Origin: an uncultured Dehalococcoidia bacterium
GTDB taxonomy: Bacteria; Chloroflexota; Dehalococcoidia; Lucifugimonadales; G958296245
NCBI GenBank assembly: GCA_958296245.1
Contig: OY282458.1
Location: forward strand, 2,360,197 to 2,424,196
Length of the DNA stretch: 64,000 nt
Reading direction: 5' to 3'
Below the pieces are notes generated by a model that searched no databases, had not been told where the DNA came from, and saw only the letters and a program-made list of their open reading frames with translations. This document shows positions 20,798 through 48,707 of this stretch, in pieces (within the stretch, counting starts at the first letter, position 1; every line of letters begins with the position of its first letter). A program made the translations under genes and the position numbers.

Positions 20798-21211
20798 CTA
20801 ACCTGACCTCTTGCTTCCGTACTTGCTGCGCCCGCGGCGCCTCTCCTCCACGCCTCCCATGTCCAACGGGCCCCTGATGATGTGATACCGGACTCCCGGA
20901 AGATCCTTGACCCTCCCCCCACGGATGAGCACGACTGAGTGCTCCTGTAGGTTGTGGCCCTCACCCGGTATGTACGCGGTCACTTCCATGCCGTTCGTCA
21001 GTCTCACCCTCGCCACCTTTCGAAGCGCCGAGTTGGGCTTCCTGGGTGTCTGGGTCCTCACTTGGACGCACACGCCGCGTTTCTGCGGAGACCCGGAATC
21101 GCGCCAACCGCGATTCTTCAACGTGTTGAAGGTGTATCTGAGCGCGGGAGACTTGTCCTTCTTCTCCTTCGAACGTCTTCCCTTTCGCACAAGCTGATTC
21201 ACAGTCGGCAT
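20798..21211 (-). CDS. rpsL: Ribosomal protein S12
   Basis: Decoding-centre protein that monitors codon-anticodon pairing. The start at [18 protein letters not shown] gives 137 residues and matches the family; an in-frame start 15 codons upstream is not conserved. The streptomycin-contact segment reads [20 protein letters not shown], with Lys at the position usually called K43. The second loop reads [17 protein letters not shown]. This is the first gene of the operon, about 60 bases from the predicted transcription start. Confidence 0.98.
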
Positions 21212-21279
21212 ATCTTGGATTCTCCAGTGGCCCGCTCGGTATAACGCACCCTCCACCTGCCTGAGGGCGACAAACGAAG

Positions 21280-21309
21280 ATTATACAGACGTGGGCGCGC
21301 CGTTGTCAA
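21280..21309 (-). promoter_or_regulatory. Predicted sigma-70-type promoter of the str/ribosomal operon
   Basis: On the minus strand, TTGACA (21309-21304), an 18-base spacer and TATAAT (21285-21280) form a near-perfect consensus promoter. The predicted start near 21273 leaves a ~60-base leader before the rpsL ATG at 21211. It is the only strong promoter I found ahead of the long ribosomal gene series, which fits a major promoter for the cluster. Confidence 0.75.
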
Positions 21310-21323
21310 ACTCAACCCGGCGT

Positions 21324-21338
21324 GTAACTGTTCAAACT
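21324..21338. repeat. Solitary IS66-like repeat end
   Basis: GTAACTGTTCAAACT matches the terminal motif of the MITE-like elements at 27750, 40484 and 48358. No partner end in inverse orientation is visible within the next few hundred bases, so this is probably a remnant. It lies between the rpsL promoter and the DUF4328 gene. The remaining bases of this gap (about 21340-21433) show nothing recognisable. Confidence 0.4.
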
Positions 21339-21433
21339 ACACGAGAGCAGGCCATCCTTGGGTAGTTTCGCATGAGTCCGAAGGGCGATGCCGGCCCCAC
21401 TCGAACCGACGGAAGGGGGATTTGGGTATCCGC

Positions 21434-27005: not shown

Positions 27006-27626
27006 TCACGTCGTCCTACCGGCTGCCGCGTCCGGCGGTCCGCTGACTAGGGGCTTTTCCATACGCCGCACCTCCGGGGACCCAGTGGCAAGCCGCACAA
27101 GAAAGCCCCGCGAGGTCCGAGTGGTCTTGTAACCCAACCGTTCGTACAGCCGGGCGGCGCCCTCGTTCCCCCCTATTACTCCGAGCGACGTCGTGCGCTT
27201 ACCCATAGATACGGCTTTCTGTTCGGCCTTCTGCATCAGGGCTGTCCCGACGCTCATGCCCCGGGACGACCGGGCGACTGCCAGAGAATCCACGACAAAC
27301 TCATCGGGCTCAGTGTAGTCCTCAAGCAGCACGAGGTTGAAGAGCACCAGGACGGCTCTCAGCGGGGAGAACCTTGCAAATACCACAGCCGGGTTCAAGC
27401 GGTAGAACTCGCGGCCTGCCGTCCGGAAGGTCAGGATTCCCAATAGTTGCCCATCGGCTATCGCCGAGAAGCAATTGGCCGTGTCGACCGAGCCTCGGAA
27501 GAGGCGAATGAGGTCGTTGGCGTTCCTGAAGCCGATGCGGAACTTCTCAGCGAACGCGTCGTAGGCCACACGTAGGGCGTCGTCTACGTACTCCTCATCG
27601 ATGCCTTCGACGATATCCACTTCCAC
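27006..27626 (-). CDS. GNAT family N-acetyltransferase
   Basis: 206 residues starting at a GTG. The acetyl-CoA-binding motif A is visible as VDSLAVARSSRGMSVGTAL (about residues 114-132) followed by LMQKAEQKAVSMGKR. Motif B is GNEGAARLYERLGYKTTR. The substrate is unknown. It is upstream of, and probably cotranscribed with, the MFS exporter gene. A short overlapping ORF with a strong Shine-Dalgarno precedes it (27595-27696). Confidence 0.85.
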   Translation of the reverse strand: MEVDIVEGIDEEYVDDALRVAYDAFAEKFRIGFRNANDLIRLFRGSVDTANCFSAIADGQLLGILTFRTAGREFYRLNPAVVFARFSPLRAVLVLFNLVLLEDYTEPDEFVVDSLAVARSSRGMSVGTALMQKAEQKAVSMGKRTTSLGVIGGNEGAARLYERLGYKTTRTSRGFLVRLATGSPEVRRMEKPLVSGPPDAAAGRTT

Positions 27627-27696
27627 AGCTCACGTGGTCCCAGACTTCAAGCTGTCTCGCGTCAAAGCCTATCAGGCTGCGGAAGGACCCCTCCAT
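27595..27696 (-). CDS. Possible 33-residue leader ORF overlapping the GNAT start
   Basis: An ATG at 27696 is preceded by GGAGGAAGG at good spacing, better than anything seen before the GNAT start itself. The product (MEGSFRSLIGFDARQLEVWD, then 13 more residues) stops inside the GNAT gene about 30 bases past its GTG. It could couple translation of the acetyltransferase, mark a frameshift, or be chance. No homology is recognised. Confidence 0.3.
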   Translation of the reverse strand: MEGSFRSLIGFDARQLEVWDHVSCGSGYRRRHR

Positions 27697-27749
27697 ACCC
27701 TTCCTCCTCATCGACTGACTTTTTCATTGAATACTTACACCCGTTGACA

Positions 27750-27923
27750 GAAACTGTTCAGACTCTGTGAGACCTGAAGAGGGAAGTCAAGAGTGATTCT
27801 CCCCTCCGGCATGGGGGTCTGGGGGCTGCGCCCCCAGTTACCAAGGGGCGGGTGGGATCCAAAGACGTCCGCTATCGGGGCTTACGCCAGTCGAAGAGGA
27901 ACTCACGAAGTCTGAACACTTAC
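27750..27923. mobile_element. MITE-like element with 8-bp target duplication (IS66-like ends)
   Basis: A 174-base non-coding element. Left end GAAACTGTTCAGACTC and right end (reverse complement) GTAAGTGTTCAGACTT are imperfect inverted repeats. It is flanked on both sides by the identical octamer CGTTGACA (27742-27749 and 27924-27931). GTAA-type ends with 8-bp duplications are characteristic of the IS66 family. No transposase is encoded, so it would need one supplied in trans. Confidence 0.8.
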
Positions 27924-27925
27924 CG

Positions 27926-27955
27926 TTGACACGATGGCGGTGCAGCCGATAGACT
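27926..27955 (+). promoter_or_regulatory. Predicted promoter of the TPP riboswitch transcript
   Basis: TTGACA (27926-27931), an 18-base spacer and TAGACT (27950-27955) fit a sigma-70-type promoter. The start would be near 27962, about ten bases before the riboswitch. The -35 hexamer lies inside the right-hand target duplication of the adjacent MITE. Confidence 0.6.
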
Positions 27956-27971
27956 ACCCTGCAACATACAG

Positions 27972-28062
27972 CAGCGTGGGGGAGCTTGGGAAGCCAGGCT
28001 GAGAGGTCCCGGCCCGAGGGGACGACCCCAATACCTGATCTGGGTAATGCCAGCGGAGGAAT
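27972..28062 (+). ncRNA. TPP riboswitch (THI box)
   Basis: The thiamine-pyrophosphate aptamer core is recognisable: GGGGGAGCTTGGG, then GGCTGAGAGG (pyrimidine-sensor CUGAGA) near 27998-28007, then GACCCCAATACCTGATC and TGGGTAATGCCAGCGGAGG ending near 28060. These match the conserved CUGAGA, ACCUGAUC and GGUAAUGCCAGCG blocks of the family. A terminator follows directly, so TPP binding is expected to stop transcription before the symporter gene. Boundaries are approximate. Confidence 0.93.
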
Positions 28063-28080
28063 ACGGATGCGCAAGTGCCT

Positions 28081-28118
28081 GAAGGCCGCCCAGACCAGAA
28101 TGGGCGGCCTTCTTTGTT
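28081..28118 (+). terminator. Riboswitch-controlled intrinsic terminator
   Basis: GAAGGCCGCCCA (28081-28092) pairs perfectly with TGGGCGGCCTTC (28101-28112) across an 8-base loop. TTTGTT follows. It lies about 20 bases after the TPP aptamer and 40 bases before the symporter start, the arrangement expected of a transcriptional expression platform. Confidence 0.92.
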
Positions 28119-28158
28119 CCGTAGCCGTCCATAGAATCCGCGCCAAGGAGATGGACCT

Positions 28159-29646
28159 ATGATCGACGGCACTGTGGCGATTATCATTGCGCTGGTTACG
28201 GCAGCCGCCTTCGGAGCGGCCGGAGTGGCTTACGTCAGGCAAAGGCGGGCCAGCGTGGAGGACTACCTCGTGGCGCGCGGCTCCGCGGGGGCGCAGATAA
28301 CGACGGCGACCCTCGTTGCCTCGGTGATCGGCGCGTGGGTGCTCTTCAGCCCCGCCGAAGCGGGCACGTGGGCCGGCCTTGCGGCCCTTGTCGGCTACGG
28401 GATCGGACAGGCGGCGCCCCTACTTGCTTTCGTGTTCCTCGGGCCGAGGATGCGCCGAATCATGCCCGAAGGCCACTCGCTGACCGAGTACGTATGGCAC
28501 CGGTACGGGCCGGCCATGTACGCGCTCGCGCTGGCCGTGATCGTCTTCTACATGTTCGTATTCCTCTCAGCAGAACTGACCGGCATAGCCCTTGCCTTCG
28601 AACTGCTGGCGGATACGCCTCTGGTATTCACCGCCGTCATCGTGGGCCTTCTCACGGTGGCCTATACCGCATACGGCGGGATACGGGCCTCCATATTCAC
28701 CGACAGAATCCAGTTCAACCTCATCATGCCACTGCTGACCGTAGGGGTCATCGCCGTGATCGTCAACTTGGGCGGCCTCGGCGGGGCGCTCGATCCGGTG
28801 AGAGAGAAGGCCCCTCAGCTCCTGTCGCTGACTCACGGCGCCGGGGTCGAGTTCGGCATCACCCTGATCATAGCCATCCTGGCGGCGAACATGTTCCACC
28901 AGGGGTTTTGGCAGCGAGTTTACACGAGCAGAGACGACCGCGCGCTCCGCGGAGGGTTCGCCATTGCGGGCGCCGTTGTAATCCCAACGATAATCGTCGT
29001 CGGACTGCTGGGGGTCGCAGCCGCCGGCCGCGGCGTGCCCGTCGAGAACGCCTCGTCGGCCCTCTTCTGGCTGGTGGTCGAGACGATGCCTACCTGGGTC
29101 GCCGTCGGGGTGCTGCTGCTAGCGTTGGTGCTCGTCATGAGCAGCCTTGATACCCTTCTGAACGGCATAGCCAGCGCCGTGACCAGCGACCTCGCGCGGT
29201 TCAGGCCGGCCCTTGCCGGCGCTTCGCTCCTGAAGTGGTCTAGGGGCATCACCGTCGTGCTGATCATCCCGGCGATACTGATCGCGTCTCAGGGGTACAG
29301 CGTGCTGTACCTATTCCTGATCGCGGACATGGTATGCTCCGCGGTGGTGTTCCCCGTGTTCTGGGGTCTCTACTCGAGGCGGTTCGGCGGCGGCGGCGCT
29401 CTGGTTTCCAGCGCCGTAGGGCTGATCGCAGGGGTGGCCTTCTTCCCCACGCCGGAGGCGCCCTACCTGACCGGTTGGCTAATAGACATAGAATGGGCGG
29501 GCCAACTGGTCGCTAGTTTCGCGTTCGCCCTCGGAGCGGCGACCCTGGCGAGCTTGGCCTTCACCGCCGCGGCCGGCAGCCTCGGACGCCCACGGCTTTT
29601 CGACTTCGCGCGGCTCCGCGAGCGGGTGCGGCTAATCGAGAGGTGA
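28159..29646 (+). CDS. Sodium:solute symporter, predicted thiamine or thiamine-precursor transporter
   Basis: 495 residues of the SSS family with about thirteen membrane helices. Typical blocks are RRASVEDYLVARGSAG after helix 1, GPRMRRIMPEGHSLTEYVWHRYG, and AYTAYGGIRASIFTDRIQFN in the substrate/sodium region. Good Shine-Dalgarno AAGGAG 8 bases before the ATG. The upstream TPP riboswitch and terminator make thiamine or a pyrimidine/thiazole precursor the most likely substrate; SSS members under TPP control have been proposed before as thiamine-related transporters (ThiV-type). Substrate is inferred from regulation only. Confidence 0.88.
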   Translation: MIDGTVAIIIALVTAAAFGAAGVAYVRQRRASVEDYLVARGSAGAQITTATLVASVIGAWVLFSPAEAGTWAGLAALVGYGIGQAAPLLAFVFLGPRMRRIMPEGHSLTEYVWHRYGPAMYALALAVIVFYMFVFLSAELTGIALAFELLADTPLVFTAVIVGLLTVAYTAYGGIRASIFTDRIQFNLIMPLLTVGVIAVIVNLGGLGGALDPVREKAPQLLSLTHGAGVEFGITLIIAILAANMFHQGFWQRVYTSRDDRALRGGFAIAGAVVIPTIIVVGLLGVAAAGRGVPVENASSALFWLVVETMPTWVAVGVLLLALVLVMSSLDTLLNGIASAVTSDLARFRPALAGASLLKWSRGITVVLIIPAILIASQGYSVLYLFLIADMVCSAVVFPVFWGLYSRRFGGGGALVSSAVGLIAGVAFFPTPEAPYLTGWLIDIEWAGQLVASFAFALGAATLASLAFTAAAGSLGRPRLFDFARLRERVRLIER

Positions 29647-40483: not shown

Positions 40484-40782
40484 GGAACTTGTTCAGACTT
40501 GGTGAGGAGTGCGGGGGGAATTGTCCCCCTCGCCGCCCTCCACTGTTTTGTCGTTCAGGAGCGCAGCACCGTTTTGTCATTCTGAGGAGCGCAGCGACGA
40601 AGAATCTAAAGTCATTGCACAGGCGCCGCGCCGTCGAGGAATGGACCGCCCAATAGCAGGCCTCAGATTCCTCACTCCGCTGGCGCTGCGTTCGGAATGA
40701 CAATTTGGGAGGGCTCTCGCGTCGCCTGATAATTTGGGAAGGGCTCTCACGGTCCGCCTGACGGAAGACTGAACAGAGTAAC
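40484..40782. mobile_element. MITE-like element with IS66-like ends and inner repeat
   Basis: About 299 bases. Left end GGAACTTGTTCAGACTT and right end (reverse complement) GTTACTCTGTTCAGTCTT are imperfect inverted repeats of the same type as the elements at 27750 and 48358. Flanking octamers (GTCTCCTC and GTCCGCCC) match at five of eight positions, so any target duplication has decayed. Inside, 40575-40702 is an inverted copy of the repeat core at 48462-48592. No coding region. Confidence 0.6.
40575..40702 (-). repeat. Dispersed repeat core, copy 1
   Basis: Begins TGTCATTCTGAGGAGCGCAG and ends CTGCGTTCGGAATGACA, so its ends are themselves imperfectly inverted. The reverse complement matches 48462-48592 closely over its length. 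This type of intergenic repeat is common in environmental bacterial genomes. Confidence 0.7.
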
Positions 40783-48357: not shown

Positions 48358-48665
48358 GTAACTGTTCAGTCTCCATGCGTCGAATAGTGAGAGCCTCCCC
48401 ATTCCCCGCAGCCCAGCTGCCCTAAACCGTCATCCCGAACGCAGCGCCAACTGCCCTATACTGTCATCCCGAACGCAGCGCCAGCGGAGTGAGGAATCTA
48501 AAGGCCTGCTATTGGGGACGGTCCGTTCCTCGACGACCCGGCGCGTGTGCAAGGACTTTAGACCCTTCGTCGCTGCGCTCCTCAGAATGACAAACAGGGG
48601 AGGGCCCCAGAATGACAAACGAGGAGGGCGATTCCCTGTGCGCCTCACAGAGTCTGAACAGTTAC
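48358..48665. mobile_element. MITE-like element with perfect 8-bp target duplication
   Basis: 308 bases, non-coding. Left end GTAACTGTTCAGTCTCCATG and right end (reverse complement) GTAACTGTTCAGACTCTGTG are near-identical inverted repeats. Both sides carry the same octamer ACCGGCGC (48350-48357 and 48666-48673). The inner repeat core (48462-48592) is flanked by shorter partial copies near 48426 and 48601. GTAA ends plus 8-bp duplications point to mobilisation by an IS66-type transposase. Confidence 0.85.
48462..48592 (+). repeat. Dispersed repeat core, copy 2
   Basis: Runs from TGTCATCCCGAACGCAGCG to CTGCGCTCCTCAGAATGACA and matches the reverse complement of 40575-40702. A shortened copy lies at 61387-61458. 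Confidence 0.75.
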
Positions 48666-48698: not shown

Positions 48699-48707
48699 TG
48701 GTATAAT
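48699..48707 (+). promoter_or_regulatory. Extended -10 promoter of the SDR gene
   Basis: TGGTATAAT is an extended -10 element (TGn plus perfect TATAAT), 45 bases before the TTG start at 48752. No good -35 hexamer is seen, which is usual for extended -10 promoters. Confidence 0.5.

Follow-up and report, generated by a model that had tools for sequence, protein, structure and literature searches.

Miniature IS66-type elements adjoin predicted sigma70-type promoters at a preferred distance in an order of Dehalococcoidia, with an off-register copy at a thiamine riboswitch promoter

In a 64,000-nucleotide stretch of DNA from an uncultured Dehalococcoidia bacterium (the window), a short mobile element directly abuts the predicted promoter of a TPP riboswitch, and the -35 hexamer of this promoter is repeated on the far side of the element. 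How could an insertion at this position leave a workable promoter behind, and is the position peculiar to this locus? The features concerned are listed below.

27006–27626, minus strand: GNAT acetyltransferase gene, divergent, upstream of the element (PF00583, 8.4e-13)
27742–27749, plus strand: left copy of the 8-bp target-site duplication (TSD), CGTTGACA, carrying an orphan -35
27750–27923, unstranded: non-autonomous IS66-type element (MITE), 174 bp, with paired inverted ends and TSD; 56 sequence matches in its own genome
27750–27771, plus strand: left terminal inverted repeat, 22 bp, GAAACTGTTCAGACTCTGTGAG
27902–27923, minus strand: right terminal inverted repeat, 22 bp, GTAAGTGTTCAGACTTCGTGAG, the promoter-proximal end
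27924–27931, plus strand: right TSD copy, CGTTGACA, a perfect match to the left copy
27926–27931, plus strand: -35 hexamer TTGACA, starting 2 nt from the element edge
27950–27955, plus strand: -10 hexamer TAGACT after an 18-nt spacer, with transcription predicted to start near 27962; the same hexamer is found in loci L154, L155 and L157
27968–28079, plus strand: TPP riboswitch aptamer RF00059, scoring 56.2 bits (gathering threshold 54.3)
28081–28112, plus strand: intrinsic terminator of the riboswitch leader
28159–29646, plus strand: sodium:solute symporter family transporter, 495 aa (PF00474, 4.1e-23)

The sequence CCGTTGACA occurs twice, 182 bp apart, at 27741–27749 and 27923–27931. The TSD is nonetheless 8 bp and not 9, as the GTTAC-type end of the element extends to and includes the C at 27923. 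The two ends, GAAACTGTTCAGACTCTGTGAG and, in reverse, GTAAGTGTTCAGACTTCGTGAG, form an imperfect inverted repeat, and the arms 27747–27771 and 27902–27926 are 80% complementary over 25 nt. Inverted ends, a TSD, many copies and a length too short for a transposase identify the 174-bp element as a MITE. The first-pass annotation had described an octamer duplication containing the -35 TTGACA, and the perfect copies of CGTTGACA on both sides of the element bear this out. Its statement that all upstream sequence had been replaced needs correcting: the native upstream sequence persists to the left of 27742, displaced by 182 bp. The element core (27781–27856, a CTGGGGGC-TGC-GCCCCCAG hairpin region) also has matches in several genomes of the order in which the full ends gave none. 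The predicted RNA fold of the whole element is strong (-73.4 kcal/mol, z -2.7), though it lies upstream of the predicted transcript.

The combination TTGACA-18-TAGACT (27926–27955) was the sole sigma70-like promoter found in 27500–28300, where shuffled sequences gave a mean of 0.1. The right-hand copy was said to keep the promoter intact and indeed provides a complete TTGACA at a workable spacing of 18 before TAGACT; inspection of the sequence downstream of the left TTGACA copy found no -10 at the right distance. The covariance-model score of the riboswitch clears the gathering threshold, and its presence suggests a thiamine-related substrate for the symporter. Insulation of the transporter by the element, also proposed in the first-pass annotation, is unsupported because the gene to the left (27006–27626, minus strand) is transcribed away from the element and a search for an intrinsic terminator inside the element found none; on the same grounds a role as insulator or terminator was rejected. 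The element was likewise rejected as a promoter carrier: the promoters lie in the flanks outside the duplications, and the thiamine promoter is present without the element in loci L151 and L152.

The age of the promoter was assessed at symporter loci of relatives. A scan of genome contigs yielded 24 such loci, mostly from Chloroflexota and including Dehalococcoidia and SAR202 MAGs, and a TPP riboswitch was present at 15 of the 20 loci searched. The sequence before the aptamer contains TTGACA-17-TAAACT in L151 and L152 and TTGACA-17-TAGACT in L154, L155 and L157; other loci have TTGACG/C variants or other spacings, and by the same criterion no promoter was found upstream of the aptamer in L153, L160 and L172. 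At the element-free loci L151, L152, L157 and L154 the promoter starts 34–40 nt before the aptamer, and the L348 locus of genome G022, also without the element, keeps TTGACA. Empty sites in relatives thus retain TTGACA-17-TAGACT/TAAACT, so the promoter predates the element and the duplication regenerated its -35, in agreement with the earlier proposal that the promoter was preserved. When all 24 loci were searched for the end repeat, paired ends resembling an element turned up in L155 alone, immediately before the riboswitch; L158, L163 and L172 gave single end-like matches. The L155 element belongs to the same family and ends 15 nt upstream of the TTGACA of the orthologous TPP promoter; its 8-bp duplication has decayed. 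The TPP promoter was thus hit in two species, in each at its own register, and we read these hits as independent of each other.

The family is abundant. In the 2.69-Mb genome of the bacterium, a 17-nt end motif with at most 2 mismatches gave 133+128 matches, against 0+1 for a reversed-pattern control, corresponding to about 130 non-autonomous copies (261 ends). Several of the 56 matches to the element lie in tandem arrays. The terminal repeats have the form GTAACTGTTCAGA(C/G)T, GTAAC being the commonest end in this genome, and the 8-bp duplications have no evident sequence consensus. The duplication is retained at 7–8 of 8 positions in 24/51 non-redundant paired own copies. Family ends are present in 27/250 genomes of the order, this one included. 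Tandem arrays of regular period (e.g. 162 bp), in which element and flank are repeated together, were seen at G000:C1:2001031–2001630, 1160479–1161186, 234508–235063 and 2221305–2221952. The window holds further members of the family:

20801–21256, minus strand: ribosomal protein S12 gene (PF00164, 4.1e-37), served by the rpsL promoter
21280–21285 (TATAAT) and 21304–21309 (TTGACA), minus strand: predicted rpsL promoter, spacer 18
21324–21345, plus strand: degenerate element end, 14 nt upstream of the rpsL promoter; partner end not identified
40485–40506, plus strand: another family end; an outward promoter was looked for and not detected
48358–48665, unstranded: second family copy, 308 bp, with TSD ACCGGCGC on both sides

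The longer family members share an internal repeat, TCATTCTGAGGAGCGCAGCGACGAAGAATCT, together with its complement (window 48440–48620 and 40560–40740; L155:2619–2769).

The probable source of these elements was found in relatives. Locus L196 of genome G209 contains a full-length element with matching ends and one 466-aa ORF encoding an IS66-family transposase (NF033517, 2.2e-75; PF03050, 9.7e-36; zf-IS66, 2.3e-6). Its inverted ends, GTAACTGTTCAGACTTGATGAG, begin with GTAA, a criterion of the IS66 family. Classical IS66 members carry a tnpA-tnpB-tnpC operon, and single-ORF members are also accepted in the family. The L196 element, 1.43 kb long, is filled by its single ORF; the lack of the operon excludes only the three-gene IS66 subgroup. 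The intact IS in L196/L265 has an 8-bp TSD, CTAGGTAG, with TTGACA exactly 16 nt out. Transposases of the L196 type occur in 13/247 genomes of the order, and intact IS copies were found only in relatives; the present genome has no copy of that transposase and no PF03050. Since the ends are shared with the L196 IS and the transposase is absent, the copies in this genome are orphaned MITEs of an IS66-type IS.

The first sign of a wider pattern was seen while duplications were being checked: TTGAC lay near many element edges, mostly pointing outward. The own-genome ends, drawn from fetched stretches and not from all 261 ends, were reduced from 195 to 174 by removing those less than 80 nt from another end (tandem arrays) and to 168 by removing near-duplicates. 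The same filters left 115 ends of relatives, 114 of them with sufficient flanking sequence. Among the 174 non-tandem ends, outward TTGAC was found 27 times at 10–19 nt (4 of these at near-identical ends of array L144) and 3 times at 20–29 nt; inward TTGAC at 10–19 nt was found once. Scored separately over the 168 non-redundant ends, outward -35 hexamers (at least 5/6) numbered 31 at 10–19 nt and outward -10 hexamers 30 at 35–44 nt, both far above the neighbouring bins.

For a combined promoter score, weights were E. coli-like values and the threshold was set at the top 0.1% of background positions. A predicted outward sigma70-like promoter whose -35 starts 13–18 nt from the element edge was present at 43/168 own ends (expected 1.0, P 3e-56). 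Elsewhere the -35 starts numbered 8/168 at 0–5 nt (P 9e-6), 8/168 at 6–12 nt (P 3e-5), 2/168 at 19–23 nt, 6/168 at 24–27 nt (P 7e-5) and 7/168 over the 32 positions 28–59. The thiamine-locus copy, with its -35 at 2 nt, falls in the first of these bins and is an off-register case. Two phased cases lie within the window: the end at 21324, facing the rpsL promoter, and the 308-bp copy, whose right-hand promoter (-35 start at 14, -10 TATAAT at 48702–48707) precedes a short-chain dehydrogenase gene.

The 13–18 interval had first emerged from the own genome; ends of G022, G247–G249, G039 and other genomes of the order were scored afterwards in an identical way. The pattern was replicated in these other families of the order, with 30/114 ends at 13–18 nt (expected 0.7, P 4e-40, mode 15–16), a count in which 15 BLAST flank matches between own and relatives' ends were left in, a few insertions in different species near the same genes being perhaps shared or recurrent. 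The phasing, seen throughout in standing insertions, also held for insertions with a TSD of 7–8/8 (18/49 at 13–18 nt, expected 0.6, P 2e-22) and for transposase-bearing or truncated IS copies (6/27 ends, expected 0.16, P 1e-8). Strong predicted promoters within 0–60 nt (68/283 ends) had their modal -35 start at 16 and -10 start at 39. Counted from the predicted start site, the element edge would then lie near -52/-51 and the duplicated target would span about -51 to -44. TSDs containing TTGAC were found in 3/49 well-defined duplications: the thiamine locus, L115 (TSD CGGTTGAC, promoter at 2 nt) and L177 (TSD GATTGACA).

As a negative control we scored IS66 elements of other Chloroflexota that have related ends (GTAACTAYTCAGGT); 2/62 ends had a promoter at 13–18 nt (expected 1.8). 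This control was less sensitive, with a looser threshold (the top 0.5% of background in place of 0.1%) and AT-richer genomes. The flat result shows that the peak is not produced by the method itself. Phasing as a general IS66 property was set aside, as it was not seen in these 62 less sensitively scored ends. Ends were also sought automatically at 30 IS66 loci of the phylum; boundaries with a full TSD were obtained for only some of them, and these results were left out of the counts.

Phasing to many promoters bears on the view taken in the first-pass annotation, in which the thiamine insertion was an isolated accident that preserved and insulated one promoter. The duplicated -35 and the conservation of the promoter in relatives agree with such an accident, but the divergent upstream gene, the element in which no terminator was found and a family phased to many promoters make it very doubtful.

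A second alternative is survivorship only: elements would insert anywhere between genes, insertions breaking promoters or genes would be lost, and those just upstream of promoters would be left. In 49 of 62 own pairs kept for the comparison of phasing with TSD state, 14/29 copies with a decayed TSD lay in the 13–18 interval against 5/20 with an intact one, so that decayed copies are somewhat oftener in register, as survivorship would have it. Against directed insertion it also counts that 30 of these 49 paired copies lie outside the interval, that 17/49 have no promoter at 0–28 nt, that some IS copies (L269, L282) lie in apparent coding sequence and that the thiamine-locus copy is itself off-register. 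Survivorship predicts, however, a flat upstream distribution, whereas the actual profile falls sharply past 13–18 nt, from 43/168 to 2/168 at 19–23 nt. In addition, 9/20 intact-TSD insertions of relatives are phased, clustering at 15–17 nt and mostly at 16. We consider survivorship alone unlikely.

What, then, marks the target? A preference for target sequence was rejected: over the first 15 flank positions the information content peaks at 0.34 bit. No strong consensus is apparent in the target octamer, and the flank is GC-rich over these 15 positions and not UP-element-like. The transposase might instead read DNA sequence at a distance, such as TTGAC at a set spacing, and not the promoter. 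TTGAC is the most visible motif, and -35 hexamers (at least 5/6) are enriched even at ends where no -10 passes (19/138 against 2.4 expected); yet -10 hexamers are also enriched at ends without a -35 (18/119 against 1.1 expected), and inward TTGAC has no peak at 10–19 nt. Sequence reading of this kind is accordingly improbable, about as much so as the isolated accident. As each hexamer is enriched without the other, the landmark is the whole promoter, or what binds there.

The credibility of the predicted promoters was judged from their genomic context. An ORF of at least 70 aa starts within 350 nt of the predicted start in 66/66 cases, although unphased ends reach 92/102 on the same weak test. 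Of the 66 ORFs, 20 were scanned and 19 match Pfam families; the genes include those for ribosomal protein S12, Rho, SufB, UvrA, a DinB-like polymerase and prephenate dehydrogenase. This diversity of housekeeping genes, together with the fixed spacing, would also be expected if the element had become a domesticated regulatory site, its end binding an activator that works at a set distance and selection having kept the phased copies. The end facing the promoter is mildly biased in type (TC/TG ends 23/76 phased, CT ends 10/69, P 0.03), which can be counted for domestication and would also fit an asymmetric insertion complex. Domestication predicts better-conserved promoter-proximal ends, but end-repeat mismatches do not differ between phased and unphased ends (own 2.14 and 2.22, P 0.69; relatives 1.83 and 1.41, P 0.13), and selection on the promoter-proximal end was rejected for this reason. 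The spacing, too, varies over ~6 bp, and the pattern is already present in transposase-bearing and intact-duplication copies. A domesticated site is therefore quite unlikely, slightly more so than survivorship.

Insertion directed to promoters is favoured because the peak is narrow and not a plateau, because proximal ends are not better conserved, and because intact-duplication and transposase-bearing copies are phased. On these comparative grounds we think it likely that an IS66-family transposase mobilised this MITE and that insertion is directed to predicted sigma70-type promoters; some later sorting or sharpening by selection is possible, given the excess of decayed copies in register. The transposase would sense the promoter or bound RNA polymerase, directly or via DNA shape, and the element would be joined just behind it, with the duplicated target near -51 to -44. 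Such a site would be a safe place, since promoter and transcript stay intact. At the thiamine locus the same process may have landed too close, inside the -35, where the 8-bp duplication would have rebuilt a full TTGACA, so that thiamine-controlled expression was probably kept. More tentatively, we infer that the IS66-type transposase might dock on promoter-bound RNA polymerase holoenzyme and insert near -51, a safe harbour for the element. By analogy, docking could perhaps be a bacterial counterpart of polymerase-guided retrotransposon integration, a parallel that we offer with the same reserve.

The known cues by which bacterial transposons select a target are sequence, replication, nucleoid proteins and guide RNA. 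If insertion is directed as proposed, a fixed distance from the promoters of many unrelated genes would add another class to these, and would account for a load of >100 MITE copies in a 2.7-Mb genome without broken genes. With the single-ORF, ISBst12-like ISs of the IS66 family, the present family shares a transposase (NF033517/PF03050 with zf-IS66), GTAA ends and an 8-bp duplication; it differs in being phased to promoters, whereas the other Chloroflexota IS66 elements tested show no phasing. Yeast Ty1 and Ty3 insert upstream of Pol III genes. They likewise have a harmless insertion place set by the transcription machinery, but the present family is a bacterial DDE transposon at predicted sigma70-type promoters, with a putative polymerase contact. 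attTn7 is one sequence-defined site. Insertion of Tn7 there is also insertion at a safe site, although a single one, in contrast to the class of promoters here. The target specificity of Tn7 is mentioned in PMC10969869, which also places the promoter of Correia elements and other promoter-bearing MITEs inside the element. The Correia elements of Neisseria and such MITEs are, like the present family, short non-autonomous repeats adjoining genes; here, in contrast, the promoter is native to the host and lies outside the element at a fixed distance. A literature search covering few subscription papers, passages of PMC10969869 and PMC9208149 included, turned up no account of insertion phased to promoters, whether by IS66 or by any bacterial MITE. 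The phased ends provide a ready-made map of predicted promoters for uncultured Chloroflexota and, if the proposal is true, the system is a possible natural tool for marking active promoters.

Flank matches between own and relatives' ends include L205/L077, L217/L020, L218/L123, L223/L016 and L257/L110. Some genes thus have an element of this kind nearby in two or more families of the order, not always at one register, the insertions being shared or recurrent. At the G022 ends in L205, L218 and L226, a -10-like hexamer lies ~5–8 nt away; here the element may have gone in downstream of the -35 and upstream of the -10, or its own end may contribute a -35.
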